Assembly (NCBI GenBank): GCA_001600635.1
Contig: BCKL01000013.1
Span: 661,537 to 725,536, forward strand
Direction: 5' to 3'
Length of the DNA stretch: 64,000 nt
DNA from: Leucosporidium creatinivorum
Lineage: Eukaryota > Basidiomycota > Microbotryomycetes > Leucosporidiales > Leucosporidiaceae
The position numbers and the translations under genes are program-made. This document shows, piece by piece, positions 28,456-55,661 of this stretch; the first letter of the stretch is position 1, and the number at the start of each line of letters is the position of its first letter. The notes under the pieces were generated by a model. It was not told the origin of the DNA and ran no database searches. It saw only the letters and a program-made list of their open reading frames with translations.

Positions 28456-29374
28456 ATGCCACCACGCAAGACCATCTCAGGCGAGCTCATCGGCGAGCTA
28501 CACAAGCTCAAAGCGAAGTACCAATGGGACTGGAAGAAGATTGCTAGCAAGATGGGGCATACCGAAGAGGCGTGCAAGCGGAGCTGTCGGTCTTTCAACG
28601 CTGAGGTATGTTCGCTGGGAAGCTAGCTGACATTCTCTACGATGCAGGGAGCAACTGGTACCTCTCGGCGAATGGACCCATCGACCTCACGAACGATTCG
28701 GACGAGGGGGATTCGGACGACGAGGTCGAGCGGCAGTTGGCTGGCGCTGGCAGGAACGTTAAGGTCGAGCATCGTGCACTTGAGATGCAGATAGAAGGTA
28801 TATTTGTACTCTGAGCGACCTCCCAAGCTTGCAGCGCTGACGAATCTCTCGTTCGGCGGCTCGGCGATAGAGATCAAGGCCGCCGCTCCTGCTCAGCGAG
28901 CGAAGGGGAAGGACAAGGTCAGCTCTTCGAGTCTCGAAGCTTTATCTGATTTTACTGACGCCCTCGGCCCGTACCCAGATCATCTCCGACCTCGAAGCCC
29001 GAGTCCTCGCCCTTGAGGAAGAGCTCCGAGTAAGAGCTCTCGTTCAGCTCTTACCGCTTCCACGCCCCCCGCCGCTCCACTTTAATCGCGAACTCGAAGC
29101 TGACTCTTCAATTGTCCTCTCCGTCTCGCAGACTGAACGAACCTGGGCTCTTGGCGACCGTGACCGAGCAGCCACGACACTCGAAGCGGCGCACAACGCA
29201 CATCATGCCCGAGAGAAGGAGTGGACGGATAACATGGCAGGACTTTTGGGCGAGGCAGTGGGGAAGGTCGTGGTGGGCGAGCAGGGAGGGCGGGCGAGGG
29301 AGAAGAGGAGGAGAGACGGGAGCGCCGAACTTGGGGGAGGGGCGGCGAGAGGGGCAGCAAGGGCTCGAGGCTGA
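28456..29374 (+). CDS. SANT/Myb-like coiled-coil protein, family copy 1
   Basis: Exon 1 encodes MPPRKTISGELIGELHKLKA, YQWDWKKIASKMGHTEEACK and RSCRSFNAEV, a SANT-like three-helix pattern with spaced aromatic residues. A phase-1 intron (GTTCGC donor at about 28610, AG|GG acceptor at 28647/28648) rebuilds a Trp codon and continues SNWYLSANGPIDLTNDSDEG, an acidic stretch resembling a SUMO-interacting motif. Using the GTATGT donor instead would lead quickly to a stop. Later exons give IISDLEARVLALEEELR and a helix with LEAAHNAHHAREKEWTD, then a basic tail (AREKRRRDGS). The first of four head-to-tail relatives. Expected to be nuclear; its partner and target are unknown. Confidence 0.65.
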
Positions 29375-29401
29375 GCGAAGCAAGGGCTCGAGGCTGAGCG
29401 A
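29356..29401 (+). repeat. two-copy 23-bp tandem duplication across the stop codon
   Basis: A 23-bp unit beginning AGCAAGGGCTCGAGGCTGAG occupies 29356-29378 and is repeated exactly at 29379-29401. The TGA stop of the upstream SANT-like gene (29372-29374) lies within the first unit, so the second unit is 3' UTR. The exact identity implies a recent duplication or a polymorphic site. Confidence 0.85.
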
Positions 29402-29834
29402 GGGTCTTCTGCGAGAGATACGAGTGTGCTCGAGCGTTGTCTTGAAGCTGTATCCGACGAGTTGATCGCCTACAGCGCTCGAAGAGAGTCGAGAGCCGAA
29501 AAGCTCGGCGAATGGGCGCGGTGAAGCAGTAGAGGGCTGCTCTGAGCAGCAAGCTCTGCTGAGCTATGCTATAGGTTGGAAGTTCTGCTCGAGAGCTGTA
29601 GCTACTCACGATCCGTGTCGACCCCTGACTAGCTTCGACCTCCCGCTTCGACCCTCGTCCGCCTCTCTTCCTCCTACCACTCACCTCGTCTCGACTCACA
29701 TCGCTCGGAGGCCCGCTCTCTCGTACACTCCACCTGTGCGGTCGACCACCACCTGCTCCCACCATCTTCGTACTCTCCTGCACCTCCTCTCGCTCCCTCG
29801 CACGACCCAACTCGACCTCATCTCTCCCGCCCCA
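29375..29834. other. intergenic within the SANT-like array
   Basis: Apart from the 23-bp duplication at its left edge, this stretch holds a GAGCTGTAGCT element near 29600 and a pyrimidine-rich leader before the next ATG. No gene is supported. Confidence 0.45.
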
Positions 29835-30692
29835 ATGCCTCGCAAGAGAGATACAACTCGCAAGACGGTTTCGGGCCATCTTGGTCTCTTCAAGCTTCAC
29901 GACGTGTACGAGAGCGACTGGGGCAAAATCTCGCAGGAGTTGCAGATGCCCCAAGAGACGCCTAAAGCGGCTTGTGAGCAGTCTTGCCTACCCTCGAAGG
30001 TAGCAGATGCTGAATCGTTGGGAGACATCGCTGACTCCAGGGGACCGCTACAACCCTTTTTCGGACGAGGGCTTCATCGACGTCGTCAAGGCGAACGATG
30101 CCGAGAAGGCTAAGGAGAAGGAGGTGGAGGGCGAAGTTGCCGAGAAGGACGAGAGTCAAGGTCAGTCACCTCGCTGACCAGTCCACCTCGATTACCAGCT
30201 GAAAAGATCGACTTCTCGGCGATCTGTAGCTGGAAAGGAGGAGCCCGCCCGCAAGAAGATCAAGCTGGAGGATGTGGTGAGGGCTTCGCTCGCGTCGTTC
30301 AAGTTGTAGCACATCGCTGACCCTCTTTTCATTATGAAACAGACCATCGCTACCCTCGAGACTCGCCTCAAGGAGGTGCAAGGCGAGCTCGAAGTGAGTG
30401 TCAACTTCCGCCGAGCTTTGGCGTGCTACTTCCTCTCGCTTCTCCTTCCCAATTTTCGCCTCGCTTGTTCGCCGCTGACACTCCTCTTCGCTCCTGGCCT
30501 CTTCCCCACCAGAACGAGCGCGCTTCCTCCAAGGCCGACCGCGAGCGCTTCGCGAAAACGCTCGAGGCGACTCACGCCGCCCACCATCAGCGTGAGAAAG
30601 AGATTAGTGACAACGTCATCGCTCAGCTGGGACAAGCTGCTTCGAGGGGAGTGATGGGACGTGCGCAGGGAGAGAAGGAGATGATGGGCTGA
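29835..30692 (+). CDS. SANT/Myb-like coiled-coil protein, family copy 2
   Basis: ATG 29835 gives MPRKRDTTRKTVSGHLGLFK, VYESDWGKISQELQMPQETP and KAA. The phase-1 intron 29974-30040 (GTGAGC donor) then splits a Trp codon, followed by DRYNPFSDEGFIDVVKANDA. A charged Glu/Lys stretch follows, and then ARKKIKLEDV, a good nuclear localisation signal. C-terminal helices are TIATLETRLKEVQGELE and LEATHAAHHQREKEISDN, closely matching copy 1 (A-x-x-AHH-x-REKE). The end is EKEMMG. Exon phases parallel copy 1. Small size (about 190 residues), basic/acidic linker and coiled coil suggest a nuclear protein that dimerises; DNA binding is inferred only from the SANT-like fold. Confidence 0.7.
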
Positions 30693-31046
30693 GGCGAGCG
30701 CCGAGTCGTGGGTTGAGGGTGCGCTTAGTGGATAGGAAAGAAAGATCGAAAAAGCTTGGAGATTCGTTCTGCACATAGGATTTGCAGTCTTACATCTCGA
30801 TTCTGTGCCAGAACCGGCGGCCGAAGCTAGGAGGCTGAGCTCGGACCCTGCTCTTGACGGACAGCGCAGCGAGCGATGCAGGGAGTCAGATTTTCTCGAG
30901 CTTCAGAGGCTTTTCTCTCCTTCTTCTCATTCGTACTCTCTCCTTCTTTTCATTCGTACGAATCTCGAGTCGCTCGTTCGCTACCTGAGGGACAGATGAC
31001 GAATCGTTCGAACTCTCGACATCGCCGAGCTCCCCCTTTTCCAACG
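30693..31046. other. intergenic within the SANT-like array
   Basis: This is the spacer between copies 2 and 3. The right half is pyrimidine-rich (TTCTCCTTCTTC-type runs), as in other promoters or leaders of this window. An in-frame open stretch extends upstream of the copy 3 ATG without another ATG in good context. Confidence 0.4.
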
Positions 31047-31965
31047 ATGCTCCTCCTCCTTCGCTCGCCTCTCTCCCTTCAAAAGCCACTTTTCCGTCCC
31101 CCTCTCGGACTCCGTGCTTTCTTCTCCACCGATGTCGCCCGCCTCTCGCCGAACCGCCGCACCGCTTGCGGTCGGCCCTATCGCCGAGAACCTTGGAACT
31201 CTTTCGAAGAGGGCAAGCTCATGGAGCTGGCAGAGAAGCACGGAGGGCACTTTGAGCGAGCAGCTGCGGAGATGAAAACGAGATCCGTGAGGTCTTGTAT
31301 GCAGAGGTGTACGTTCTCGTCGTCGACTGAAAGAAAGCTCGGGGCCGAGCAGGGCTGACGCTTTGGCCGCCGACGCAGGGGAGCTGCTAGACAAGGCGGC
31401 GAGAAAGAAGAACTCGAATTAGTGAGCTCCCCTTCTTTCGGCGAACGATACAGCCACACGCTGACCCTGTCGCTTCCTTTTTTAGTTTTTTAGTCCGGTG
31501 CCGAGTTGGATTGTTCGCGAGAGGCCGCTCCCGGTCCTCCCTCCTCAGATTACTGGCACGGCGTGGAAGCCCGGTTCGTACAGCTGCATCTGTCCGTTAC
31601 TTACCTCACTGACCTTGAACGAGCGTGCAGAGCGCTCTGTTCCAAAAAAACTGCCCGCTTAGTTTTCGGCGCTGCTCAAATTCGAGCAACGTGAGATGGC
31701 GGAGGAGGGGTGAGTGCTGCTTTGCTGGCCGAGTCTCCAATCTGACAAGCTCTATTACTCTCCGTTCACCAGCTCCAAGTTGCCACGATGAGCAGGCATG
31801 AGCTGGTCGACGATTTGGCGAGGGCCGAGGTGAGTTATTCGCTTCAGACGTTCTCTCGCCACAGCTTCTGAATGGGAGGAGTCGTGCACGCAGGGGGAGG
31901 CAAGGGTATGGAAGAAACTGTACTTCAAGGAGAAGCACTTCAACGAGAAGGATGGCAAGTCGTAG
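31047..31965 (+). CDS. SANT/Myb-like coiled-coil protein, family copy 3
   Basis: The SANT-like exon encodes REPWNSFEEGKLMELAEKHG, GHFERAAAEM and RSVRSCMQR. A phase-1 intron (T|GTACGT, AG|GG) then restores a Trp and continues ELLDKAARKKNSN. A later exon reads YPVPSWIVRERPLPVLPPQI. Further exons give EQREMAEEG, LQVATMSRHELVDDLARAE and GEARVWKKLYFKEKHFNEKD, ending KS with TAG at 31963-31965. The start at 31047 gives an unusually hydrophobic, basic N-terminus (MLLLLRSPLSLQKPLFRPPL), so the true start may differ. The junction before the EQREMAEEG exon is not resolved by hand. Its C-terminal helix matches copy 4. Confidence 0.55.
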
Positions 31966-32328
31966 ATTCGGCGATGATTCGCCGAAGGAGGGAAGGGGCA
32001 GGCAGCTGTAGATAGAACATCCCCACTCAGTAGTACTTGTGCAGTAGCAACACCACTCAACACTCTCATTCGTTCAAGAGAAGGACATGTACGAGAGCAG
32101 GAGAGCGAGTGGCTTGGCCTCGGTCGAGCAGGCCGAATGGAAACGGACGGCGCAGCTGCATCGCTCGAAAGTCAGAAGCGTTTTCCCTCCTCAGGGTCGC
32201 TCCTTCCTCCGCTCTGCAAAGCTCATCTGTACCGGAGCACAGGGACCAGGCGGATTCAAATCCCCGTCTACGTCGACGCTTCACCGAACCGCTCTCTCGT
32301 CGTCGACACGACTTAAGAGGACGCCAGC
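31966..32328. other. intergenic; flank related to that of copy 4
   Basis: The segment at about 32005-32115 is recognisably similar to about 33395-33520 downstream of copy 4. Shared pieces include CAGCTG-AGATAG, CCACTCAG-AGTACTTGT, CAACACCA-TCA-CA and ACGAGAGCAG followed by GAGCGAG. This points to duplication of a gene-plus-flank unit. Confidence 0.6.
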
Positions 32329-33307
32329 ATGCTCGTCACGCGTCTTAGCCCCAGGCTCGCCGCTTGGGCTCCCTACCTTCCTCGCTCACCTTTCCAAGCT
32401 CCCTCTGCATCCATCTCCTCCCTCCGCCGCCGTCGGCGCCGAACGATCATTGGAGCAGCTGGTTGCCCTTGGCACAGCTGGGAGGATTCGCGTCTCTGGC
32501 ATTTCCAAGGAATCTACCGCAACAACTGGGAGGCGATCGCCAAGCATGTAGAGACTGGTCGAAGTCCGGGAGGCTGTCTTCAACGATGCGAGTTCATCGC
32601 CGAGCTCGCGAGCGCCGGGGCGTCGTGCTGAATAGCCAGGGCTTCTCGCAGGGATCAAGCTCAAGAAGCATCTCAAGGATCCCAGGTAGGTGCTCCAAGC
32701 ATCGACATCAGCTAGACCCCACTGATACCGTCGACCGAACCACAGCTCCGAACTCACCGTGTACGAGCCTTCTGCTCCACCACCGCCGGCAGCTTTGGCG
32801 AAGCGCATCTCTCCTCGAGTTGCAGGTAAGCGCGGTCTTGCTTCCGGAACCTGTAGTGAAAACGACGCTGACCTCACTGCCATTCAGAGCAAATGGCGGC
32901 GTACCTCGGGCGAGTTGAGCCTCTGGCAGTGGCGGGAGAGGGAGAGAACGAAGGCGAGCGAGCCACCTCTCGTACTGTGGGTCGTATCTCCCTGCTCTTA
33001 CATCACTTTATCGTTCACAGCTAACTTGTCTCGCCCCTCCCAGCATGAGCTCGCCGCGATGAGCAAGCTCCAACTCATCGACGAGGCCATTCGACTCGAG
33101 GTCAGCAGAGCTTTCAGAATTGCGCTCCCTCAGCTAATGTTCTGTGTTAGACAGCTCCTCGCCAACCAGTACCGCCAGCTCTGGATCGCACCCGTACAAG
33201 CGAAACTCAATGCTGCTCGGCGCCGAGAGGAGGAGTTTGAGGAACACTTGAGGGCTGGCTATAAGGCGAGCGTTGCGCGTGCGCGTAGTGCGAGGTCCAA
33301 GACGTAG
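32329..33307 (+). CDS. SANT/Myb-like coiled-coil protein, family copy 4
   Basis: ATG 32329 gives a basic N-terminus, then the SANT-like segment CPWHSWEDSRLWHFQGIYRN, NWEAIAKHVETGRSPGGCLQ. The usual phase-1 intron here has a GC donor (CGAT|GCGAGT) and the AG|GG acceptor, rebuilding Trp before IKLKKHLKDP. A Pro-rich exon (SAPPPPAALAKRISPRV) precedes a helical part: HELAAMSKLQLIDEAIRLE, then LLANQYRQLWIAPVQAKLNA and ARRREEEFEEHLRAGYKASV, ending ARSARSKT with TAG at 33305-33307. The MSK-QLIDEAIRLE helix parallels MSRHELVDDLARAE in copy 3. Probably nuclear; specific role unknown. Confidence 0.68.
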
Positions 33308-33663
33308 AGATAGGTGGGGGAGCTCGTCGGCGATCAGGGCGGCGAGGAGGAAGAAAGTTCGGCGCAAGTTTCGGCGGCGGAGAGAAGCCGGAGGGCAGCT
33401 GAAGATAGCCCATCACCACTCAGCAGTACTTGTAGAAGCAAATCAACACCATTCAGCAACATCTCTAGCCGAGAGCGAGATTGCAGGAGACGAGAGCAGC
33501 GAGCGAGTTGGCTTCAAGGCGTTTCTCGGGCTCGGCCGAGCGTCCCCTTTTAAGCCTGGCTCTTGTAAACTGCTTGCATATCGAAAACTGCCCGTTGTAC
33601 ATCGAGTCTTGAACACTGCCCACAAAACACCCGCTAAGCCCCTGCACCTCAAGCCCCGCCGTC
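33308..33663. other. intergenic; duplicated flank then transporter 3' region
   Basis: The left part is related to the flank downstream of copy 3 (see 32005-32115). The similarity fades near 33525, where the 3' region of the minus-strand sugar transporter begins. It may mark the edge of the tandem array or a lost further copy. Confidence 0.55.
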
Positions 33664-35971
33664 CTAGACATGACTCGTCTCGCCCTTGGTCTCCGAGTCG
33701 GAGCGGCTGCCAGCGAATTCCAGGTGCTGCACACGCTCCCTCTTGGCCTCGCCGACAGTGGTAGCATGCGAGTGACTGAAGAGGAGGTCGATCTCCTCGA
33801 GTGACTTGCCCTGTAGAGTGAGGAAAAGGATCAGCTCGGCGCTCCCTGCTCGGCGAAGGTGACAGGCAGTCATTGTCGTGCTGGAACGTACCTTTGTTTC
33901 GACCAGCAAAAAGTAAAACATCGGGACAAAGCAAAGATTGAACAGTCCGAAGACGATGTAGGTCTTCCATCCGATGCGCTCAATCTACAACAGGAAACGA
34001 AAGGTCAGCGGGGGACTCGAGCGAGAGGTGCAGACCGTGGCGGACCATGACGGGGAAAACCTCGACTACGGCGAAGTTGATGATCTTTTGAAGAGCGAAG
34101 TAGAAAGTCAGCATCAAAGCGAAGGCCGAGAGCGACGTCGCGCCAAGAACGTCGACCCCATCGCCGAGAAGGGCGACTCACCCAGTTGCAGCATGTGGCG
34201 AGCGCTGTGCCCTTGCCACGGATCTTGAGAGGAAGTAGCTCGGGGACAGTGCACCAAACTGTCGCTTGGAAGCCTGGAAGACGAACATGAAGCATCAGCG
34301 GGGATTGTTCGGCGATCAAACTGCGCGACGACTTACCGATGGTAAAGGCGCTGAGGTAGAGGAAAGCGATCGCAACAGCAAGACGTCCCATGACGGGTGC
34401 GAGCTCCGTCTTGTACTGGATCTCGTGCGTAGCACCCGCGAGGACGGCAAAGCATGCTGCCATGAAGGCGACTGCACCGACCAGGAGAGGCTTGCGGCCG
34501 AGCGAGTCGATGAGAAGCCAGGGGACGAAAGACATGACGAAGAAGCAGGTGAAGAGACCGCCTGTGAGAGATGGGAAGGGTCAGCACAGAGCAGAAGAGA
34601 GCTCGGCGCGAGTGGCGGCTCACCGGAAAGGACTGAAGCGTCTGTGGGGGAGAATCCGAGACTGCCGGAGATGACCAGAGTTCCGTAGTAGATCACTGCA
34701 TTGATTCCTCCCAGCCTGGGTGATGCTGGGTGGTCAGCGCAGCTCTCGCGTTCGTTTGGGCGCCGCCCTAAGCCCTTCAGCTCGGCGCCGACAAGCTTCA
34801 TCAAGAACTCACTGCTGACAGAATTGGATCATGCAGGCGAGACCGAGACGACGACGCGACTGAAGTTCATCTTTCGCGAACAGCTGTTTCCATCCCTTGA
34901 CCATCACGGCCTGCTCGTAGGCGACAGCGTCGGCGATCTCCTGGTATGCTGCGCGAGCTTCCGGGTCGGTTACCTCCAGGTTTTTGTACGCGGCGATGGA
35001 AAGGAGGGCCTCCTCGTGACGACCGTGGTTCTCGAGCCAGCTGTGAGGGTGGGAGGGGAAAAGCGAGAGCGAGAATTAGCTTGAGGCTGAGCTCGGCGAT
35101 CGGTGTGAGCCTAGCAAGCGACAGAAGTGGAGGGGTGGGCGTTAAGGAGGAGACGAAAAGCTCACCGAGGCGACTCTTTCACAAAAAAGGAGAGGATGAG
35201 GATGGGGATGATGATGACGATCTGGAAGGCGATGGGGAAGCGCCAGGCGAAGGACGAGGATTCCGAGCGAGTGGTGCCGAAGTCTAGCCAGTAGGCGAGC
35301 ATGATGCCAAAGTTGAGGAGGGAGAGCTGGGCGCAGACGTCTGAGAGGTAGGCGAAGGGTCAACATGGTGGTAGAAGCCCCGGCAAGAGGAGCACGCTGA
35401 TCAACGCCGAGCTTACAGCGGCCGCGGCTGGCTTTGGGAGAGACCTCAGCTTGGAGGACCGGCGCCTGGAGGATGTAGAGACAGATCAGCCTGACTCTAG
35501 AGCACGAATGAGAAGCCTGAAACTCACCGTCGAGTTCAACAAGCCCATTCCCAAGCCCGAGACGATCCGACCCGCAATCAAATGTCCCCTAGTATACGCA
35601 CTGGCCTGGAGAGCAGCCCCGATGGCCATAAGAATAGAGCCAATACTGATCGTCTTCTTCCTTCCCAATCGTTCGCCGAAAGCGAAAGCTCCGACCGCGC
35701 CGAAGAAGCAGCCGACTTCGTAGATTGCTACGATGGTGGAGAGAGCGGAGCCGGTGGGGTTGTGGAAGGTCGTGTTGAAGGTTTTGGCTTCTGTGAGGCC
35801 GCCGATTACGCCGTTGTCGTCTGTTTGAGTGCGAGTGCGAAGGGGAGGATCAGCTCGGCCTTCGGAGGGGAAGAGGCCGGCATGTGACTGGACTTGGGAC
35901 TTACAGCCGATCAACATGAAGGTGAGGGCTGTTAGGATGGCAGTGAGCAGGAGAGGCGAGATGAACGCCAT
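33664..35971 (-). CDS. MFS sugar porter (hexose transporter-like)
   Basis: The minus-strand start at 35971 reads MAFISPLLLTAILTALTFML, followed after an intron by DNGVIGGLTEAKTF. Sugar-porter signatures appear in order: GERLGRKKTISIG in the first half, the VKESPRWLENHG loop, MIQFCQQLGGINAVIYYG in TM7, LIDSLGRKPLLVG, VPELLPLKIRGKG and VETKGKSLEEIDLLF near the end. Twelve membrane spans are expected, spread over about nine exons. The tail ends GETSHV. The family imports hexoses or related polyols at the plasma membrane; substrate cannot be told from sequence alone. The gene lies in the same orientation as the SDR gene upstream of it, but no functional link is evident. Confidence 0.9.
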
Positions 35972-37587: not shown

Positions 37588-37618
<31 letters not shown>

Positions 37619-37859: not shown

Positions 37860-38132
37860 GTTGAGGTGCAGAAATGAGAGCGTAGAGGCGGGAAGGAGAG
37901 GACCAGCAGCTTGGATCTGACCAAATCCGTTCGTTTCTCAGAGTTCGACAGCTTCGACTAAAGAGGAACACTCTATCAACCTACAGCTCAGCAGCTACCC
38001 GTCTACTGCACGCCCTATCACCCCCTACAGCTTCAACACAGCTCTCAGAGCGCTCCGTCCTCTCCTCACTCACTTCGCACTCGCCTCTCATCTCTTAAGC
38101 AGTTGTAGGGCATTAGCTCTCGCACATCAGCC

Positions 38133-44332: not shown

Positions 44333-45299
44333 ATGGCGCCTCGCGACGACCTCTGGCCGCCGAGCGAGGACCACCAGCTGCTCGCCCTTGTTGAAAAGTA
44401 CGGCGACAACTGGCAAGCCGTGTCCGACAACCTCGTCACGGAGAAGGTCGACAAGAGAACTTCTAACGCTTGCAAGCTGAGGTGTAGGTGTCACTATGGG
44501 GCTGGTCGCGGGGACGAGGGACTAACTCTATGCGCTACAGGGAAGAGGCTCGGTGGCAGTCAGACGGCGCAAGCTTCGGCTCGCTGCCAGTCGAAGAAGT
44601 CGGAGAAAGCTTCGCCGGTCTCGACTAAAGTTGGCGCGGGTGGCAGCCAAGGTCAGCTTTCTTGGCACATGCTATACCCTCTCAATCCTCCCAGCTGACG
44701 CCGACCGACCCTGCAGCCTCCAAGAAGCGCAAGGCGCTTGTTCTCGAGGACTCGGACGACGAGGCCGAGACCGAATTCTCGGCTAGCAAGAGCAAGCGCA
44801 AGAGCAAGGCGGCGGATTCGCAGGTTCACTTCGATCATCTTGCCACTGGAAGCTGTACACCTGGCAACTGGAAGCGCCAGCTGACCTCGCTCCTCACAGG
44901 TGCTGCTGAAGAAGGAGGTCGAGGACCTCAAAGAGGAAAAGCTCGTTCGTCGTCCCAGCAGACTCGCCCTGTGGCTCAAGCTCATGCATACTTCCTCTTT
45001 CACAGAAAATCGCCGAGCAAGCTCGTATCCGCTCCGAGATGAGGGAGGACAACCTGCAGAAAACACTCAGCGACGTCGTTGGCATCTTCGGCCGCTTCAC
45101 TGAGAATACCGGCGTTTGTCCAGGTACGGGAGCGGGCGGTGGAGGCGATGGAAAGAAGAAGGTGGCATTTTCTGCTGAGAAGGATGGCAAGGATGGTGCG
45201 AACGGCGACGATGTGGATGGTCGTGAGTCTCTCGGCGTTGACAGCTCGGCGAGAGCTCCGCTGACCGCTCCCATCGCTCGCAGGACAATCAGGCAGTAG
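44333..45299 (+). CDS. SANT/Myb-like coiled-coil protein, family copy 5
   Basis: ATG 44333 gives MAPRDDLWPPSEDHQLLALV, EKYGDNWQAVSDNLVTEK and SNACKLR, the best Myb/SANT match of the set (W...W spacing and ACKLRW). The phase-1 intron 44484-44540 splits the final Trp codon exactly as in copies 1-4. Next come KKSEKASPVSTKV, then SKKRKALVLEDSDDEAETEF, joining a basic nuclear signal to a SUMO-interacting-like LVLEDSDDE, then KSKRKSKAADSQ. Coiled coil follows (VLLKKEVEDLKEEK; KIAEQARIRSEMREDNLQKT). The C-terminus is Gly/Lys-rich; the final splice is uncertain, so the stop may be slightly beyond 45299. Function unknown, nuclear location likely. Confidence 0.68.
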
Positions 45300-45639
45300 C
45301 TTAGCGACGATAGTGCTTGTAGGATATCCTTGCCTTCTTTTTGTAGCTTTGTCGGGGAGGTAACGCGCCTGCTTGTTCCGATCTCGAAGCGGCGACGAGA
45401 AAGCGAGCGAGGTCGACCAGCTCGACATGAGTTCGCTGCAGGACGAGGACTGAGCTCTCGATCGAAAGGATCTGACGGCTCCATGGCGCTTCGATTCGCG
45501 ATGAAAGTCAAGTCAAATCGAGTTTTAATCCTCGCCGAGCCATTCAGATCGTTTCCTATCCGCTCGCATCGCAGCTATTGCTCACCTGTTCCAAGATCAA
45601 GAGCGTCAGCAAAGCACAATTTTCGAAGGGCTACATGAC
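45300..45639. other. intergenic, convergent 3' ends
   Basis: This stretch lies between the stop region of the fifth SANT-like gene and the stop of the F-box-like gene on the minus strand. Nothing but 3' UTR is evident. Confidence 0.4.
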
Positions 45640-46817
45640 TCACGCATCGTCGAGGTAGCTCTCCCATTCAGCGAACTCGCCCTCCCCTCCTCCCTCGCCG
45701 AGTTCGTATGCGATGTTGATCCCAAGCTGAGCACACCTCTCCTGAACCGCCGTGAACTTCCTGCGTTCTCCAATCTCCTTGCACGTGCTACAGAGGTAGA
45801 TATCGTCCGGCAGTACTAGGCGCTGGAGGCTTTGGAGGGAAGCTGGCGCCGGCGAGATCGTTAAGAAGGACTGGAGCTCAACGAGTTGCGTTCCGAGTCG
45901 ATCGAGCTCGCATTCGTTGTTCAACGGCGGAGGGATGAGACGAAGCTGTTGTAGCGACGTAGGGAGGTGCTTTAATGCCGACCGGAGAGGGAGGTCAAGC
46001 CCGTCGTCCATGATGCCTCGAGCGAGGGAGAGGTTCTGAAGTCGATGTATCTGGGGCCACATCTTATCAGAATAGGGTTGGAAAAGCTGGCAGGAGTCGT
46101 CGAGCCTAACCGTTGTGAGCTGAGTCAGAGAGGAGAGAGCTTGAGCGAGGGCCGAAATAGAGGGGGAATAGCGGTTCACGTATCCGAGACTGAGAGCGAC
46201 GGAGATAGCGGAGAGGGTAGTCAACGAGCTTGGCTTGAGGAGGTGGGTCCAGGCGTCGCGAGGTTTGACGACGACGTCGACGATAGACAGCCAAGCCAAC
46301 CGGGGCAGCATGAACGGCGCAACACGCTTTGTACAGTCGACTTGGACGTTGCGAAGGTGCAGCTGGGTGTGGACTAAGAGAATGAGTAAGCGACTGAGGA
46401 TGCAGGCGAGATTTGAGAGGAGCGAGACGTACAGGGAGCCGAGCCGAGCGTCGCGAGCGAAACGCCGAGATCCTTCAGGCGCAGGTCCACAGAGCTGGTG
46501 CACTGCTTCAGCACTTCGTCCAAGCCTTCAATATCGGTAATAGCTCCACCACCTGAGACGCGCATCGACGCGACCTGCCCAGCGAGTCGACTACCCGTCC
46601 CCTCGGTGGAAGCGATGAACCTCGCCACGGTCTCGTCTCCCGCCAGCAAGACATGTCGGTAGAGCTCGAGCTGCGCCGACGGTGCCCAAGCCTTGCAGAC
46701 GAGCGCGTAGGAGAGCAGGATGGCGTAGCGGTCTGGGAGAGCCTCGAAGGAGATGGTCGAGGGGAGCGAGAGGAGGATGATGCGGTGGATCAGCTCGGCC
46801 GGGAGGGAAGGGGCCAT
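45640..46817 (-). CDS. F-box-like / leucine-rich protein
   Basis: The minus-strand start at 46817 gives MAPSLPAELIHRIILLSLPS and YAILLSYALVCKAWAPSAQL, an F-box-like pattern (LP-E-I--I and a C-K-W turn). One short intron (GTACGT donor) joins LGSAP to FHTQLHLRNVQVDCTKRVAP. The rest has Leu-rich segments (LTTLSAISVALSLGYV, LQNLSLARGIMDDGLDLPLR, LQQLRLIPPPL), then CSTCKEIGE and an acidic tail ending YLDDA. About 370 residues. Such proteins usually serve as substrate receptors of SCF ubiquitin ligases or as uncharacterised F-box-like proteins, which are abundant in basidiomycetes. The substrate cannot be inferred. Confidence 0.72.
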
Positions 46818-47033
46818 GTCGGTAGAGCTTTGGGGTTGGCTTATGGGCTGTAGCAAATTAGCCCCGAGGTCAGCGGGACGACTCAGCGAGCTCTCGAGCT
46901 GAGCGCGCAGAGAGAGAGAGCGAGCTCACCGAGCTGTAATAGAGTGAGCGCCTAGAGCAGCGAGCTGTAGCAGAGCAGTAAGAATCCTGTCCAAACGAGT
47001 CGAAGCTGCCGTACCCGAGCACAGAACGAGGTG

Positions 47034-48988
47034 ATGGCAGGAGCACAAGAGTTCGATTTCGAGCTGCACTTGCAGGTCTCTCTCCCGCCGCTCACTGCTC
47101 GCTCTCGTTTGCTATTGTCCTACAGCTCCGGCCTCGCGCTCAAAGGAAAGCTGCTGGGCTACGTCACACTTCCCACTACCGCCCTCCTCGCTCGCTGCTC
47201 TTGCTGGGACACAAGGGACGCGTCGCTTCAGAGATCGTACGCAGGGACCTGCTCGTCGTCGAAAGTGAGTGGTTGTTCTCGCTACAGGGAGCTTCAGGGG
47301 ATAGGTGCAGTCATCTGATGTGCTCTGCACTGCTCCGTCAGCGCCCGGGTACGCTGAAGCGCACTCGGAGAGCAAGAACAAGGTGTTGAAGGAGCAGCTC
47401 GCGCCGTTGTGCAGCTCAGTAGCTGACCTCTACCTTTTTTCACTGATCCACAGTCGAGGTTATCTCCTCCTGCCATCCCTCCCTTCGCCAGCTCTCGCTC
47501 CTCCCCTCTGAGCTCGCCCGCTCGGCATCGCCGAAGCTCCTTCGCCCCTTCCCCTCCGCTCGACCGCATCGCCACGAACAAGTCATCAAGCATTCTCGAG
47601 AAGCACTCTTTCGATCTCAGCTGGGACTTCGACGTCGACACAAACGACACCGCGACCGACCTGAGGCAACCGCTCAAGACCCGCTTCGGCGAGGTGGTGC
47701 TTCAAATTACCATCAAGGAGCCGCAGCACATGGTGCAGACCGTCTGGTTTGATGGCGTGGAGCATGGCTCGATCGGTCGCAACTTCAAGCCCTCCTCCAC
47801 GCTGTTCTGGGTCGATGCAGAAGGGAAGTCGACCTACATTCGAAACGGCATCTGGGGCAACTACGCCCAATTCCCGCCCCATCGATCGCAACACACTCGA
47901 CTTGATCTCTCCATCTGCGATCCTCAAGTCTTCAGAGATGCAGAGGCTGCCGATGCCACGTTCAAACGCCTTACCCATCGGCACTATCGCTACGTCTTCA
48001 CACTCGGCGACGTGTTGCCCCCGCTGAGCGAGCTGTAACCTTTGCCGAAAAACGCAATCAATTGCAACGACTCCTGTACGTCAGGATTATACGGCAGCGC
48101 CCGGCACTGACGCTCGCTGACCTGCCTCTTGACCTAGCAGCTTCCTTACTCGCGAAGCACCCAAACAATGTCCGACTCGTCTTCGAGAGCATCGGCGCCG
48201 ACCTTTGGAGCGGTGTTTCTTTCCTCTCCAGCTCGTCTCCCTACTTCAAGACTCTTCTCGCCTCGGACGACTTCGCCGAGAGCATACGCCGTGGTCGGAA
48301 ACGACCGAAAATTGAGGAAGGAGAGACGATTGTGCTGGATGAAGATTCGACAGCGGGGTCAAGAGCGAGATCAGCCACCGAGGCGCAGTCGACGTATGGC
48401 CATGGCCATGGCGACGACTCGGACGAGGAGACAGACGCCTTCATCAGGCGGCGCAGCCCTTCTTCGGTCGAGGATAACAGCGATGACGGCGACTTCACCT
48501 ACCGCGAGGTGAAAGTCGTGGAGTCGCCCTACACCACCTACCGCGCCGTCCTCCTCTACCTCCATTCTGGCTACATTGCCTTCGCTCCTCTCTCCTCCAC
48601 CCTCCTCCCCTTCGATCCCGCCGCCAAGCAGACCCGCGAGCAACTCCTCGACCAACACCTCACCAAGACACCATCTCACCCCTTCCCCGTCTCCCCTAAA
48701 TCAGTCTATCGCCTTGCCCACCTCCTCGAAATCCCCTCGCTTTGCGACCTCTCCCTCGCCGAATTCGGACCTCAACTCAAGATCAATAACGCCGCCCGAG
48801 AGCTCTTCTCCAAGACGAGCTCCCTCTACGACGACCTGCGCGCTATCGTACTCGCCTTCGTCGTTGAAAACTGGGCCGAGGTCAAGGGCAGCGAGGGGAT
48901 GAAGGAGATGGAGACGCAGGCGAGGACGGGCCAGCTGCCGCATGGGACAGCCATCTTCTTCGAGCTTCTTCCTCTTGTCTCCAAGTGA
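47034..48988 (+). CDS. MATH-like/BTB domain protein, exon structure partly unresolved
   Basis: The best supported parts are a MATH-like segment (47580-48010: EKHSFDLSWDFDVDTNDT, VWFDGVEHGSIGRNF, HRHYRYVFTLGD) and a BTB segment (48140-48988: VRLVFESIGADLWSGVSFLS, SSSPYFKTLLASDDFAES, YRAVLLYLHSGYIAFAPLSS) with a C-terminal helical part ending FFELLPLVSK. The two lie in different frames and the junction near 47936-48140 is not settled: a simple intron does not reconcile the phases. The 5' exons (from ATG 47034, including SESKNK near 47360) are tentative. BTB proteins of this kind often pair with Cul3 ligases or act as scaffolds. Two separate genes is an alternative reading. Confidence 0.5.
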
Positions 48989-49594
48989 GGAGGCAGAGCT
49001 GGTGGGCGGATCTCGGCGCAGGGTTGAGGGAGGTTCGGGGCTCGGCGGAGAGGGGCAGTCGAGACCGAGGTTGATCAGTAGGGCCGAAGAAGGTTGTGCT
49101 ACATCAACGCAAAGCAGATTTACAATCACATGTGACTCGGAGTGAAGCGAAGGCGGATTCCAGGTCACGAGGAGAGAAGGGCGGCGGGCCAAGGCTCGCG
49201 GGCTTGGGCTCGAGAGGAGAGCGAAAGACCGAGTTGTGAACGTCTGCTTCCCACCGTTACCTCGTCCTAACAACCTACAACTGATCGTCAGATGGCGATG
49301 GAATGCTGAACCAGCTCTGTAGGTCGTTGTGCTCTCCATTGAACCCCGAGCTGATATGCTGATCCGCGCTTCCCTCGTTCTTTCTTAGTCGCCGTCTTCT
49401 CCTCTGCTCGATATCGTTATTCTACACCTCGTTATCACCTAGACCCACCTACCGACTTGGACGTCGAACTCCTCCCCGTACATCGACCTACAACTCCTCC
49501 AGCGCCCTCCCCAGCTCTCGCTCCCTCGTCATCCGAGCAGCTCCTCAACTTTCACCTCGAATCGCTCCTCAAGCGAGCAGAGCAAGGTTTAGCG
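48989..49594. other. intergenic
   Basis: This is the 3' region of the BTB gene and the promoter and leader of the phosphate transporter. The frame upstream of ATG 49595 is open for 46 codons but lacks an earlier ATG; SPX proteins conserve the MKF start chosen below. Nothing else is recognised. Confidence 0.45.
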
Positions 49595-52500
49595 ATGAAG
49601 TTTGAGACTTCTCTGCTGTTCAACGCGGTCCCAGAATGGACTTCGTACTACATCAAGTGAGTTTGGCAGCTGAGGGCTCTTCGCTGAGCGTGGGCCGTTA
49701 ATTGGGAGACGACGGACGGGACGGCGATGGCTGGGGAATGGCTGGGGTGTACCATAGCAAAAGAGACTCGCTGTGCTGCAGCCTTTCGCTGCTCCGCTGC
49801 CCTACAGCTCCCGGCGCGCCGCTCATCAACAAAGCTGATCTTCGCTCTCCGCTTCACAGCTATGGCCAGCTCAAGACGGCCATCTACCGCTTTGAGAAGC
49901 AAGCGCTAGCACCTCCACCTACATCCTACACCGACGAAGAGCCGACCCCTTCCAACCTCGAATCCGCTCAGCTTCTCGCTTCCGCCTCCGCCATCCAAAC
50001 TCCCAACACGAATGAGAAGATCTTTACCCGTCTCCTCGACCAGGAGCTGCACAAGATTACCGAGTTTTACGTTGAGAAGGAGCGGGAGCTGCTCGGAGAC
50101 CTCGCGATGCTGCAGGCCGACGTCGAGCGCATCGAGGACGAGGCATCAGGCTTCAGCGGCCAAGGAGCTACCTCGGGCGGATCCGACACGGAGGACGAAG
50201 ACGCTGGTGGGGATAGCGAGGACGACGAGCAAGGAGTCGCTGCTCGCACCAGCCGGCTGTTCAAGGGCGCCATCGAGACGGTCTTCTCCAACCCGAGCAA
50301 CTACGATGCCGCCAAGCGCGCCGGTCGCAAGGCCAGGATGCGCCGGAATCCTTCATCGTCGAGGAGCGTGGACGCCAAGGGCAAGCGCCCCCGCGCGTGG
50401 AGCAACGCCAGCGCAACGAGCGATTTGCTTGACCTCGAGGAGGAGCCGAGCGAGGAGAACGGAGAGGCCGTGCCCGAGGGCGTCGAGTTCCCCGTCACGC
50501 CAACGCTCAAGCGGAGTCAGTCAAATCACCTCAAGGCTAGCCAGAGCGCTCGGAAACGCGAGAACAGCAAGATGGGACAGAGCGTCGCTAGCTTCGGCGA
50601 TGAGGACGATGGGCTCGCCGAGGGCTTCTGGGCGGGCAAGAGCGATTGGGCCATCGACAACCGGATCATGTACAAGAGGAGGATTGCCGCTCTGTATACG
50701 GTAAGTTGTCGGAGACACTCCGTTACAGCTCGAGCTCGAGCTAATTCGCTCGGCCTTCGCAGTCCCTCTCCGAGCTCAAGCAATACGTCGACCTCAACTA
50801 CACGGGACTGAGCAAGGTCATCAAGAAGTAAGCCTTTCATCACTTGCTTCTCGAGGTGCTCCCTTACCGACCTCTCTCCCGCAGGTATGACAAGATCACC
50901 AACTCGGCTCTCCGTCCTCGGTACATGAAGGAGGTCGTCGACACCACCTTCCCCTTCGAGCCCGTCACCCAAGAGCGCCTCAGCAACGCCATCCACTCTC
51001 TCGTACCCCTCTACGCCGACATGGCCACCGGCGGCAACGAGGAAGGCGCCCTCAAGCAGCTCAACGCCCACCTTCGCGAGCACGTCGTCTGGGAGCGCAA
51101 CACCGTCTGGCGCGAGATGATTGGACTGGAGCGTCGCGGATGGGGAGGAGCGACGGGCTCAGGATCAGGCAAGAGGGGCACCGACGTGCCGATTGTGCAG
51201 GGCGTTTCGGTCGAGAGTAAGACGGAGCTCAACACTCCCGTCGGCCGCTTTTACCTCCCATCATGGCTCACGAGCCAAGTCGTCGCGGGTGTACTCGCTC
51301 TGCTGCTGTTTGGAGGCCTCCTCAACGCGCAGTGGTTCGACCGAGTCGAGGAGCAGAACTGCCTCGCGCTTCTCGCCTTCGTCACGATCTTCTGGGCTCT
51401 CGAGGTGAGTTGACTGCTCCCGGCGGTACTCAAGACTCGCTGACCTTCCTCGCACGCCACAGATCGTCCCCCTCTTCGTCACCGCGCTCATGGTCCCCTT
51501 CCTCGTCGTCGTCCTTCGTGTACTGCGCTCGGCCGATGGAGAAGACCGACGCCTGACTGCTGGCGAGTCGACCAAGTGAGTTCGCTCAGGCTCTATCTTA
51601 GCGAGCATATCACTAATCCCCTACACCCGCAGGTACATCTTCGGGCAGATGTTCAGCCCCACTATCATGCTTCTGCTCGGTGGCTTCACCCTCGCCGCCG
51701 CGCTCAGCAAGCAGAACATTGACAAGGTCCTCGCCACCAAGGTGCTGAGCCTCGCCGGCACCAAACCCCGATCGGTCCTCCTCGCCTACATGTGCGTCGC
51801 ATGCTTCGCCAGCATGTGGATCTCCAACGTCGCCGCGCCCGTGCTCTGCTACTCTCTCATTCAGGTAAGTTCGGATTCTCTCATCGCTGCAAGCGCTGCA
51901 GAGACATTCTTTCTGACACTTTCGACCCCACAGCCCATCCTCCGTACCCTCCCTCCTCAAGCGCCCTTCTCCAAGTCGCTCATCCTCGGGATCGCCCTCG
52001 CCTCCAACATCGGCGGCATGGCCTCCCCCATCTCCTCGCCCCAGAACCTCATCGCCCTCGAGTACATGTCTCCCGCCATCTCGTGGCTCGGCTGGTTTGC
52101 CGTCTCGATCCCCGTCGCCTCCACCTCCATCTTCATCATCTGGTTGATCCTCCTTTGGAGCTACCGCTCGGGCAAGGGCATCGTCATCAACCCCGTTCGC
52201 GTCAACAGGGAGCCATGGACCAAGACGCAGTGGTTCGTCTCGGTCGTCACCCTCGGTACGATTGTGCTGTGGTGCGTCGAGTCGCGCCTCGCCTGGCTTC
52301 TCGGCGACATGGGCATCATCGCCATCATCCCGATCGTCCTCTTCTACGGCACAGGTATTCTTCGCAAGGTGGGCACTTTCCTTGAGCTGAGTCATCGCTT
52401 GCCCGCTAACAGCGTGTTATCCCGTACAGGCCGACTTTGACCACTCGCCTTGGTCCATCGTCTTCCTCGCGATGGGAGGTATCGCGCTCGGAAAGGCTGT

Positions 52501-53167
52501 CCTCTCGTCTGGTCTACTCGATGACATGTAAGTTGGTGCTGTGGATCTACTTGAAGTTCCTCGCTGACATCTCGCTCGGTGCGCAGGGACTCGGTCATCC
52601 AAGAACTGGTGCTCGGCCTCGACATTTGGCCCATTCTCGCCATCTTCTCGGTCGTCGTCCTCGTAATCGCCACTCTCATTTCGCACACGTATGTCTCTCG
52701 TGCCTCCGCTTCCCTCGAGCTTCGCTGACCTCTCCTCCGACTCGCAGAATCGCCTCGGTACTTGTCGTGCCCATCGCTGCTCAGATTGGAGCAGCCATGG
52801 AGGTTCCTCACCCTCGCCTGCTCATCTTCGCTACCGCGCTGATTTGCAGTGCCGGAATGGGATTGCCTATTAGTGGATTGTGAGTCGTCGTCTCGAATGG
52901 CCGTTGATCTCGGCGCTGACCATTCGCCTTCTTCTCGCAGCCCGAATCTTCAAGCGTTCGTCTCTCTCGCTGCATCCGATCTCAAGCGTCGAGCTCAAGT
53001 ATCTGACTGTCCCTTTGCTCTCCCACAGCATCAACGTCGAGGACGACATGGGCCAGCGCTACCTCGAGCCGAGCGACTTCTTCAAGAACGGTATCCCCGC
53101 TAGTATAATCGCCGTCATCGTCGTCATTACTGTCGGCTACGGTATCATGCGCGCGTTGGGAATGTAG
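49595..53167 (+). CDS. SPX-domain low-affinity phosphate transporter (Pho87/Pho90/Pho91 type)
   Basis: The start MKFETSLLFNAVPEWTSYYI is the canonical SPX beginning. It continues YGQLKTAIYRFEKQA after a 200-nt intron. Further SPX parts are LLDQELHKITEFYVEKEREL and YVDLNYTGLSKVIKKYDKI, the lysine-bearing helix that reads inositol pyrophosphates. A Ser-rich insert lies between. The DASS/sodium-symporter half has about twelve spans: SWLTSQVVAGVLALLLFGG, IMLLLGGFTLAAALSKQNI, FASMWISNVAAPVLCYSLIQ, ASNIGGMASPISSPQNLIAL and the C-terminal VIVVITVGYGIMRALGM. The two SNVA/SPxxPN-type motifs fit anion transporters. About 1,000 residues over some ten exons. Plasma membrane (Pho87/90) or vacuole (Pho91) cannot be decided. 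Confidence 0.92.
52941..52955 (+). other. 15-nt microexon of the phosphate transporter
   Basis: The exon CCCGAATCTTCAAGC lies between a CTCGCAG acceptor and a GTTCGT donor. It links the split Phe codon of ...MGLPISGF to the split Ala codon before INVEDDMGQRY, giving GFPNLQAINVEDDM. This restores the second DASS signature (G-P-N), so the microexon is needed for a functional transporter. Confidence 0.75.
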
Positions 53168-53417
53168 GGGAGCGAGGAGCAGCTGCGTAGAGCACGGAGG
53201 AGTTGAGGTGACCCGAACGATAGATGCTATCCTTTTGCAGATCGGGGAGATGGAAACCGCTCAGAGAAGTTGAGAAGTCAAGCTGTCGAACAGTCGCAAG
53301 CTCCGAGCGCTGAGAAAGTGCTCAGACGACGAGCTCGACTAGATCAAAATCGAGCCGCTCATCTTTTGCTCTCCTCCCACTCGCTCGCTTCGTCGGTTGC
53401 TCGCTCGCCTCGCTACG

Positions 53418-54422
53418 ATGTCTCCTTTCACTTGGACTCCCTGGCTACTGAACCAGCTCTCGATGCTCGCCAAGGACCCTCGAACTCAGAACGACTGGAC
53501 TGCCATCAAGCAGCGGCTCGCGGAGCTGGCGCCTGAGGCTGGGGCGTTCTCGGACTCGCAAGTCTCGCAGAAAGTTCAGGAGCTCGAGGGTGAGACTCTT
53601 CGTCAAAACGAAGCTTCCGCAAGCTGACCTGTACTCGACTACAGCCGCCGACGCTGACCGCCAGGGTGAGCGCTTCATCTTCGCGGGTTGGACGAGCTTA
53701 CAGCTGACCCCCCTTCACTACTCGAAATCAGACGCCCCTCAAGTCAAACATCCTCGCCCCCCGAAGCGCAACTACAGTACGCGGTCGGGTGAAGGCGACT
53801 CGGATTCGCAGGAGAGGCCGGCTCGCGGCGGGCCTTCCTCTCTCTCGGTCGTGGACGAGGAGGACGAGGAGGATCAGGTCGATACCCTGCAAGGTGAGTC
53901 CCAAAAGCATCCCCAAAAGCATTTACACAGAGCTCACGAGACTCTCAGCCCTCGCAAATACGCCTCGAACCCCGGCTCAACCTTCGGCCCACGACGGCGA
54001 GGCGCACTCTAGCGACGAGGAGCTCTCCAAGGTCTCCATCAAGACGGTAAGCTACTCTGCAGATAGTATGTAGTTCCTCGCTGACCTCTCGACTGCTCAC
54101 CCTCCCCAGCTAAAGGAGCAAATTGACCGCCGAGAAAAAAAGAAGAGGAGGAAGGAGGTTCGCTCGCCTCTCCCGTCACGTATCGTACAGCGCTAATCAT
54201 CCAAACTCTCCCGTCACATCCGAACAGGGCAAGCAGAAGACCCAGCTCCTTCAGCTCGAGTTGCACAACGTCGAGAAGGAGAAAACGGCGGCGGAGATGC
54301 ACCACCGAGATGTGAGGTACGCTGTGCGCGAGGGTGTGCGAAGTGAGTTGTCATACCTCCCTCTATCCTCGAGTACTGGCGGGCTTACCCCTTCATCACC
54401 TCGAGCAGACATCCCCGAGTGA
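53418..54422 (+). CDS. SANT/Myb-like coiled-coil protein, family copy 6
   Basis: ATG 53418 gives MSPFTWTPWLLNQLSMLAKD and TQNDWTAIKQRLAELAPEAG, then DSQVSQKVQELE: a divergent Myb/SANT pattern lacking the last Trp. A phase-1 intron follows here too, but without the split Trp. Subsequent exons encode DAPQVKHPRPPKRNYSTRSG, an acidic block (SVVDEEDEEDQVDTL) and SSDEELSKVSIKT. A basic coiled coil comes next (LKEQIDRREKKKRRKE, a nuclear signal; QLLQLELHNVEKEKTAAEMH then HRDVRYAVREGVR), and a last mini-exon NIPE with TGA at 54420-54422. About 210 residues. Layout matches the other SANT-like copies; function unknown. Confidence 0.62.
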
Positions 54423-54799
54423 GCGCCGAGGTGAGCTTGGAGGAGAGGGCTACGAAGCGGATAGGCGTAGTGGAGCTTGAAAAGTGCTTAGGAGTAGTGA
54501 ACAGCTTCTTGACCTCCTTTAAATGTCTCAATATGATGTAGCAAAGCGAGCGGATCCGTCCTCGACTTCTCGGCGCCATTCAGAAGCTCGGCGATGCGCT
54601 AGACAGCTCACGATTGGCGCGAGAGGTGCCAGCGAGAGCAAGAAGCAAGAAGTTCAATTCTATATGCTCCAAGAACTCCTCGACGACGCTCAAGCAACGT
54701 GCTCCAGCGACTCTCTAGGTCGGAAAGTCGAGCCTCTCGCGGCTTGACTTCCGACCACTCGCCTCGTCTCAAGACCGTCTCGCCCGCCGCTTCATCAGG
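54423..54799. other. intergenic between SANT-like copies 6 and 7
   Basis: This is a spacer of 377 bp with the 3' region of copy 6 and the leader of copy 7. Open frames across it (for example 54523-54747) lack domain support. No repeat seen. Confidence 0.4.
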
Positions 54800-55661
54800 A
54801 TGGGCAAGCGCTGGACCTCATCTGAAGATCAAGAGATCCGAAACTTCGTTGCTAGCGCTCCAACCAACGACGTCGGGATCATTTGGGCGGGGATCACCAA
54901 ACGGCTGCCTCGTCGCAAGCAAAAAGCTTGCCGCCAGCGCTGGGCTACTCTCAAGAAGGCTACCCTAGGAGCGCGTAAGTTTTTGCGCTCTAAGGAGGTA
55001 CAGCAGCTACTTACTCGTCCAATCAGCGGTCAAGACAGCTTCCGCCGCCGCTCAGCCTCGCGCGAGCTCCTCGTCGTCTCCTCGCAAGTCGCAGGGTGGG
55101 GCGCTCTGGTTTCGGACAGCTACAGACGCAATCACTAACCTCCGTCTTCGCCTAAAGCCCGTCACCCGTCTGTTTCTCGCCCTACTTCCGCTCGCGCCGC
55201 CAACACCGATGAGGAGGAGAGGGAAAGCGAGGTGCAGGAGGAGAGAATGGTGAAGAGGCAGGTGCGTTGCTACTCTCGATTCAAATCTGAGCTCTTTGCT
55301 GACGCTTCGCTCATCGAACAGCTCATCAGCAGGAAGCACGACCTCGACGAGGCCATCGCCGAGCTCGATGTGGGTGGTCCTCCTCCGAGCTTTCTTCCCT
55401 TCTCTCACCTCTTCCTCCCCTTCTAGGTCTTTCACGGTCATCGCATGCTGGAGGAGGACATTCGTCATGTCAAGGCCGTCACTGCCATCAAGCAGGACCA
55501 CACCAAGGATCTCGTCAAGCTCACCGACCGCGAGGTCGAGCGCCTTAGGCTCGCCGCGATCTTTAACGATCCCGATCTCGTGAGTCGGTGCGATATATTA
55601 CTGGTGAGTACTCGTCCGAGTAGCTCTGACCTTCCTTCCTTCGCAGATGACTCAGGACTGA
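54800..55661 (+). CDS. SANT/Myb-like coiled-coil protein, family copy 7
   Basis: ATG 54800 gives MGKRWTSSEDQEIRNFVASA, VGIIWAGITKRLPRRKQKAC and RQRWATLKKATLG, a clear Myb-type repeat (three spaced Trp; KACRQRW). Here the last Trp is not split by an intron; the first intron comes later. A Ser/Ala linker (KTASAAAQPRASSSSSPRKS) is followed by acidic EEERESEVQEERMVKRQ and helices LISRKHDLDEAIAELD and VFHGHRMLEEDIRHVKAVTA, then IKQDHTKDLVKLTDREVERL. The last exon is MTQD with TGA at 55659-55661. About 210 residues. It is the closest to canonical Myb/SANT of the seven. Likely nuclear and dimeric by inference; no target known. Confidence 0.72.

Follow-up and report, generated by a model that had tools for sequence, protein, structure and literature searches.

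A probable subtelomeric family of small SANT/Myb proteins with a recurrent intron plan in Leucosporidium creatinivorum

The stretch of Leucosporidium creatinivorum DNA analyzed here, 64,000 nucleotides (nt) in length and referred to as the window, corresponds to bases 661537-725536 of contig C13 (BCKL01000013.1, 743,395 bases) in a genome assembly of 27.7 Mb and 63 contigs (GCA_001600635.1). It carries seven small plus-strand genes for SANT/Myb-like proteins, which probably belong to one fast-diverging subtelomeric family, derived from an intron-rich ancestor and expanded by duplication, with products that are likely to be regulators. Computational tools support several parts of this reading: the gene models and their domain, an intron plan that recurs, the duplications, a position close to contig ends with telomere repeats, and a lack of database homologues for the copy-7 subfamily. 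The fold is the ordinary Myb/SANT fold, which is already known; what we rate as new is a subtelomeric family of such proteins that is restricted to one lineage and can be recognised by its intron plan. The original prediction for this DNA had described the seven as SANT/Myb-like coiled-coil genes forming a local, lineage-specific expansion of nuclear proteins. Its gene models, motifs and tandem order stood, as did the SANT/Myb assignment by Pfam for four of the seven and the lineage-specific expansion, while a common coiled coil was not confirmed and a purely local expansion and a nuclear role for every copy did not stand.

Gene models were built from each predicted start with a purpose-built splice-aware gene finder, which joined GT (later also GC) donors to AG acceptors using branch-point and codon scores and was trained on seven long open reading frames (ORFs) of the window. 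An ATG was present at 7/7 starts and the modelled frames were 173-223 amino acids (aa) long with 5-7 exons each, in keeping with the size of about 170-240 residues given earlier. As predicted gene models, the seven starts and their exon chains are each plausible:

Copy 1, 28456..29374, plus strand: exons 28456-28609 (or 28456-28585), 28648-28797, 28871-28917, 28979-29029, 29132-29374; 214 aa (206 with the shorter exon 1); intron phases 1-1-0-0 in both.
Copy 2, 29835..30692, plus strand: 178 aa; exons 29835-29973, 30041-30160, 30230-30276, 30343-30393, 30513-30692; phases 1-1-0-0.
Copy 3, 31047..31965, plus strand: 173 aa; exons 31047-31308, 31379-31421, 31494-31573, 31631-31638 (uncertain), 31773-31829, 31894-31965; phases 1-2-1-0-0.
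Copy 4, 32329..33307, plus strand: 223 aa; exons 32329-32587, 32652-32685, 32746-32825, 32888-32976, 33044-33100, 33155-33307; phases 1-2-1-0-0.
Copy 5, 44333..45304, plus strand: 211 aa; exons 44333-44483, 44541-44651, 44717-44823, 44900-44944, 45006-45222, 45300-45304; phases 1-1-0-0-1.
Copy 6, 53418..54422, plus strand: 209 aa; exons 53418-53589, 53645-53665, 53732-53893, 53949-54046, 54110-54157, 54228-54342, 54409-54422; phases 1-1-1-0-0-1.
Copy 7, 54800..55661, plus strand: 187 aa; exons 54800-54974, 55027-55095, 55158-55261, 55322-55369, 55427-55579, 55647-55661; phases 1-1-0-0-0.

The stop of copy 7 fell at 55661 as given before, copies 1-4 were head to tail over 28456-33307, and both helix motifs described earlier were recovered, AHHxREKE in copies 1 and 2 (AHHAREKE, AHHQREKE) and MS(R/K)xxLxDxxxRxE in copies 3 and 4 (MSRHELVDDLARAE, MSKLQLIDEAIRLE). 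Exons 3 and 4 were equally long in copies 1 and 2 (47 and 51 nt). The model adopted for copy 3 was not the finder's best (score 22.4 vs 25.5), and the first intron of copy 4, which is GC-AG, was placed by hand on the plan of copy 3 and was absent from the top model. The C-terminal end of copy 5 is uncertain, with the best-scoring model reaching 45453 (229 aa), and that of copy 6 was set by hand, the top model reaching 54602.

The curated Pfam cut-off for Myb (PF00249 / PF13921) was passed by copies 3, 4, 5 and 7. Scores with PF00249 were 42.6 bits for copy 5 and 34.7 bits for copy 7, and rose on splice correction from 17.2 to 29.7 bits for copy 3 and from 19.4 to 24.9 bits for copy 4 (25.4 bits with PF13921); passing the cut-off supports the splice choice in these two copies, with the caveat that their models were chosen partly for restoring a tryptophan (Trp) that the Pfam profile rewards. 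Copy 1 remained under the cut-off (16.7 bits vs 22.9), and copies 2 and 6 gave no Myb match in the Pfam scan. Structure prediction of the SANT part, which had been proposed as a check, was done for exon 1 of copies 1 and 6, and the AlphaFold2 models matched Myb/SANT chains with the three-helix Myb fold. A Foldseek search with copy 6 alone returned no match below E 4; when the list was re-examined, c-Myb R1 ranked first. Copy 7 was closest to c-Myb by sequence among solved structures (E 5.9e-6). A leave-one-out profile test, in which the closest paralogue was removed as well and each copy was compared with 2000 shuffles, gave 2, 3, 0, 0, 0, 3 and 0 shuffles matching the real score for copies 1-7, and the leave-one-out E-values of copies 1, 2 and 6 (2.9-8.7) were not significant by themselves. 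An N-terminal SANT domain in all seven, as originally claimed, is thus backed by Pfam in four copies and by the predicted fold in copies 1 and 6, but copies 1, 2 and 6 miss the cut-off and in copies 3 and 4 the domain comes after a leader of about 45 aa. PF00249 matches were also clustered, with 4 of the genome's 66 (E <= 10) inside one 24-kb stretch where 0.06 were expected, which corresponds to about 5e-4 after a rough all-windows correction. Over the last 18 domain residues, the net charge of the third helix was +4 to +6 in copies 3, 4, 5 and 7 and 0 to -2 in copies 1, 2 and 6. Of the neighbours 6 and 7, copy 6 has a SANT-type domain with a non-basic third helix and copy 7 a strongly basic Myb domain.

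The cluster continues to the right of the window on contig C13:

Copy 8, C13 726550, plus strand: Myb-like by position and intron plan; 15/2000 shuffles as good; without a Pfam match.
Copy 7', C13 728681 downward, minus strand: forms with copy 6' a diverged duplicate of the pair 6/7 in inverted orientation.
Copy 6', C13 730119 downward, minus strand: the other member of that inverted duplicate.

Copy 8 adjoins a Nup85-like gene, of which a PF07575 exon lies at the right end of the window. Within 40 kb the C13 cluster comprises ten genes, which lie 13-53 kb from the contig end; degenerate TTAGGG-like letters are found at this end, 13 kb past the last family gene. The left end of contig C26 carries a clear CCCTAACCCAA telomere array, with family members at 36.1, 37.1, 52.2, 53.6 and perhaps 50.7 kb (36-54 kb from the telomere). 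The subtelomeric position holds at both of the ends surveyed, C13 right and C26 left. With at least three genes beyond the window and relatives near the C26 telomere, the expansion is not only local as had been predicted; that it is lineage-specific is supported by the full-length pairs, the shared intron plan and the finding of no homologue for the copy-7 subfamily while a control protein found some.

Full-length similarity was detected by blastp for copies 1/2 (34% over 185 columns, E 6e-17), 7/7' (E 6e-14 to 6e-16) and 6/6' (E 2e-11 to 1e-8), and copies 5/7 matched at E 2e-5 to 2e-3. Copies 3 and 4 share a further trace of tandem duplication:

3' flank of copy 3, 32001..32040, plus strand: 88% identity with its counterpart at 33394-33433.
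3' flank of copy 4, 33394..33433, plus strand: partner of 32001-32040.

A recent event is seen in an inverted pair on C26 (36.1/52.2 kb), 92.7% identical, in which exons differ at 16/523 sites and introns plus 5' flank at 49/495 (p 8e-6, or p 0.016 when the exons are compared with introns only). Its SANT exon has one difference in 145 sites, which is silent. Together with indels in the tail, these differences make the SANT domain look constrained and the tail loose.

Between subfamilies, blastp was at chance for most pairs. Outside the SANT domain, similarity between the pairs mostly does not rise above chance; the link between them is carried by the intron plan. The plan was assessed on 15 modelled genes, 10 on C13 and 5 on C26. 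Phases 1-1-0-0 were found in 9/15, and the same phases with one extra intron before the 0-0 pair in another four. An exon of 33-57 nt between two phase-0 introns was present in 12/15 genes (in copy 8 via a lower-scoring variant), and in the seven window copies the shared plan centres on an exon of 45-57 nt. In six genes, copies 3, 4 and 5 and the C26 genes at 36.1, 37.1 and 53.6 kb, intron 1 lies at the identical base of the third-Trp codon (helix 3, phase 1). The split Trp codon of copy 1 is the third Myb Trp only in the third-ranked model, which has the shorter exon 1 and an intron 1 of 62 nt, the more usual length, compared with 38 nt in the other model. Neighbouring genes served as control: their intron phases 0:1:2 were 73:53:53, the series 1100 occurred in 3/20 genes with at least four introns and a 33-57 nt phase-0-flanked exon in 2/24, although this control on 24 neighbours is rough, the automatic scan having fused adjacent genes and included some family members. 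At the control phase frequencies the chance of 1-1-0-0 is 0.015 per gene. On contig C21, 14 of the Myb readings listed pass through the third Trp uninterrupted and three (189318, 190908, 192941) are possibly broken nearby; the unbroken readings indicate that a split third Trp is not general to Myb genes in this genome.

A protein search with copy 7 returned nothing at E <= 10 (197 candidates) from a database that includes Microbotryum and other Pucciniomycotina, and a profile of copies 7 and 7' likewise returned nothing at E <= 10 from the same database (2671 candidates). The protein search needs shared 5-residue words across 5.8 billion sequences, so distant relatives could escape it, and it covered the copy-7 subfamily alone. 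As a control for the same database we used the neighbouring sugar transporter (modelled at 33664-35971 of the window, minus strand), for which the top match, with 63% identity, came from Microbotryum silenes-dioicae; M. intermedium, two unnamed Microbotryomycetes and Meredithblackwellia ranked next, which fits a microbotryomycete whose own proteins are probably missing from this database. Among the matches listed from the open-licence literature, none described a family of this kind in Microbotryomycetes, and Myb and SANT are absent from the main-text wording of the Microbotryum lychnidis-dioicae genome paper (PMC4469406).

Among known systems, part of the wheat rust literature reports enrichment ratios of 6.35 for PF13873 and 4.06 for PF12776 (PMC5295586), and these rust Myb/SANT-like families, found with NAM-associated PF14303, are likewise a Pucciniomycotina expansion of Myb/SANT-type proteins. 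In contrast to them the window proteins match PF00249/PF13921, and none of the seven matched PF12776 or PF13873 at E <= 5. One C26 protein scored below threshold with PF13873 (15.7 bits, cut-off 21.7) and three C26 proteins scored below threshold with PF13837. In Candida albicans, a Mediator-related gene is described as having expanded at chromosome ends into the lineage-specific TLO family, whose members fall into distinct architectural groups (PMC9713401). It is alike in its expansion at chromosome ends and unlike in its protein, which is unrelated and has a MED2 domain; in our case the subtelomeric position is shown for two contig ends only. Domains of c-Myb R1, CDC5-like, DMTF1, Reb1, CoREST and DMAP1 have the same fold as exon 1 of copies 1 and 6. 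All of these sit in larger, well-conserved proteins, whereas the window copies are single-domain proteins of 173-223 aa with no recognisable partner domain.

Several observations weigh against a single family. Every gene model is the prediction of one purpose-built splice finder, working from sequence alone, and several depart from its ranking (copies 3, 4 and 6', the C-terminal ends in copies 5 and 6, and the small exon in copy 8); the third-Trp intron of copy 1 likewise needs a lower-ranked first exon. In copy 2 the Trp codon interrupted by intron 1 lies three residues ahead of the third-Trp column, and in copies 6, 7, 6' and 7' the intron lies downstream of the third Trp, not within it. The C26 gene at 50.7 kb (phases 2-1-1-0-0) is off plan, as is the top model of that at 52.2 kb (1-1-0-2), which fits when exons are mapped from its 92.7% identical sister, and copy 6' is on plan in its second model only (top model 1-1-2-0-0). 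Copies 3/4 are weak in blastp (E 0.04-0.11). For the recent C26 pair, the whole-gene ratio of nonsynonymous to synonymous substitution rates (dN/dS), calculated from 16 changes, is 0.57; exon 4 of the sister copy contains an insertion of 3 bases, and an indel of a single base changes the last residues of this copy. Copy 1 has a domain that is basic overall (+4) despite its non-basic third helix. At the C-terminus, the common coiled coil of the original prediction was unproven, since a crude heptad test on 12 proteins gave shuffle fractions of 0.08 for copy 1, 0.05 for copy 2 and 0.11-1.0 for the remaining ten, among them the five further window copies, which were unremarkable. Nor are the C-termini common to all seven as had been thought, being shared only inside pairs, and a C-terminal motif across subfamilies was rejected when 12/12 leave-one-out tests fell at or near chance (best case copy 5, with 118/2000 shuffles equally good).

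We consider it improbable that the seven are separate single-Myb genes which are neighbours by chance and resemble each other only as members of the large Myb superfamily. Such an explanation would accommodate the chance-level blastp between most subfamilies, C-termini that are unalignable across them, and a third-Trp intron that is exact among the window copies only in 3, 4 and 5, with the models of 3 and 4 chosen against the finder's ranking. It does not explain why the 1-1-0-0 plan recurs or why intron 1 occupies one helix-3 column in six genes on two contigs, given that the C21 Myb readings are mostly unbroken there and the split is not general; the inverted duplicate of the 6-7 pair and a PF00249 clustering in excess of expectation also argue against it.

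An origin from transposons, as Harbinger-type Myb/SANT partner proteins or element remnants without a host role, was judged highly improbable. Nuwa families of the Harbinger group are reported to encode a transposase and a separate Myb/SANT protein (PMC12730594). The window proteins resemble the latter in being small and separate, and inverted copies are present, but DDE_Tnp_4 (PF13359) had 0 matches at E <= 0.01 when the whole genome was scanned exon by exon, and the partner reading was rejected on this result. No transposase domain occurred among the Pfam matches of the 20 window ORF pieces scanned, the seven genes retain 4-6 introns, and the recent C26 pair shows constraint on its exons. 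A third alternative is that these are genetic-conflict genes, with a part in allorecognition, killing or silencing specificity, for which turnover near telomeres is useful. The subtelomeric place, the rapid divergence, the retention of pairs and the lack of database matches for the copy-7 subfamily would suit such genes, and in Neurospora, genes restricted to a lineage and situated near telomeres are reported to cluster with genes for HET-domain proteins (PMC10684091). These features are equally those of ordinary subtelomeric families, however, and the Pfam scans showed no domain of toxin, membrane or death type; we regard this explanation as quite improbable.

Returning to a single family, its ancestor would have encoded a small protein in which a single SANT/Myb domain was followed by a low-complexity linker and a short helical region at the C-terminus, and from this gene tandem and inverted segmental duplication probably produced the pairs 1/2, 3/4 and 6/7 and the inverted 7'/6'. 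From the net charge of the third helix we infer that the SANT/Myb domain would dock on DNA in copies 3, 4, 5 and 7, where the helix is basic, and on chromatin proteins in copies 1, 2 and 6, where it is not. Putative pair-specific C-terminal helices may set which copies associate, and the small proteins, overlapping in part and soon replaced, could serve as regulators or as architectural factors. The predicted function of the family is that of DNA- or chromatin-binding regulators.

The proteins had been called nuclear throughout. Nuclear-signal-like runs occur in 7/10 C13 genes, but in the window the K(K/R)x(K/R) runs are found in copies 1, 2, 5 and 6, which may act in the nucleus, and not in copies 3, 4 and 7. 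Copies 3 and 4 have presequence-like leaders instead:

Leader of copy 3, 31047..31181, plus strand: about 45 aa; first acidic residue at 29; net +6 over residues 1-40.
Leader of copy 4, 32329..32460, plus strand: about 44 aa; first acidic residue at 52; net +9 over residues 1-40.

By charge and acid-free stretch these leaders resemble mitochondrial presequences, and copies 3 and 4 might act in mitochondria; the helical moment is 0.44 in copy 3 and 0.51 in copy 4, and copy 7 also reaches 0.44. A bolder proposal, which we think rather unlikely, is that the family is divided between two genomes, with most members on nuclear chromatin and 3/4 as mitochondrial DNA-binding proteins, and with 6/7 as a co-duplicated heterodimer of a chromatin-reading (non-basic) and a DNA-reading (basic) partner. 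If these readings are true, a conserved intron plan reveals basidiomycete paralogues that have diverged past BLAST, and the cluster offers a route to study the near-telomere turnover of small DNA- or chromatin-binding proteins, the retention of pairs and perhaps a change of compartment.

Other features of the window and its contig were recorded in the same analysis. A 951-aa open frame without a Pfam match occupies 57425-60280 on the minus strand. A second local repeat family lies at 45647-48969, with related stretches of 66-83% identity in either orientation elsewhere on C13 (C13:627-630, 641-643 and 656-661 kb); its single long ORF scanned, on the plus strand (47906-48985), had no Pfam match. 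Linkage to mating type was rejected at contig level for STE3 (C25) and the strongest homeobox hit (C24), and by distance (about 280 kb) for two weak homeobox hits at C13:384-407 kb. The latter are homeobox_KN matches in 461-aa frames at C13:384792 (plus strand) and C13:406751 (minus strand), which form an inverted pair 22 kb apart.

Contig C21 (500,099 bases) holds, at about 188-500 kb, 27 of the genome's 66 PF00249 matches (E <= 10), where 1.2 were expected. Groups of some three Myb readings are repeated at 188-193, 236-242, 254 and 420 kb, and the contig end truncates a dense mixed Myb group at 482-500 kb. These genes were considered as members of the same family and set apart, since most of those modelled have two or three Myb domains and differ in intron plan, and C21 looks like a separate, larger Myb expansion. 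Around the dense group lies a 2,695-base inverted repeat (C21:479412-482106 and C21:498635-495941), 99.7% identical, which is either a recent inverted duplication or an assembly effect; one frame in it looks, by a motif, like galactose-1-phosphate uridylyltransferase.

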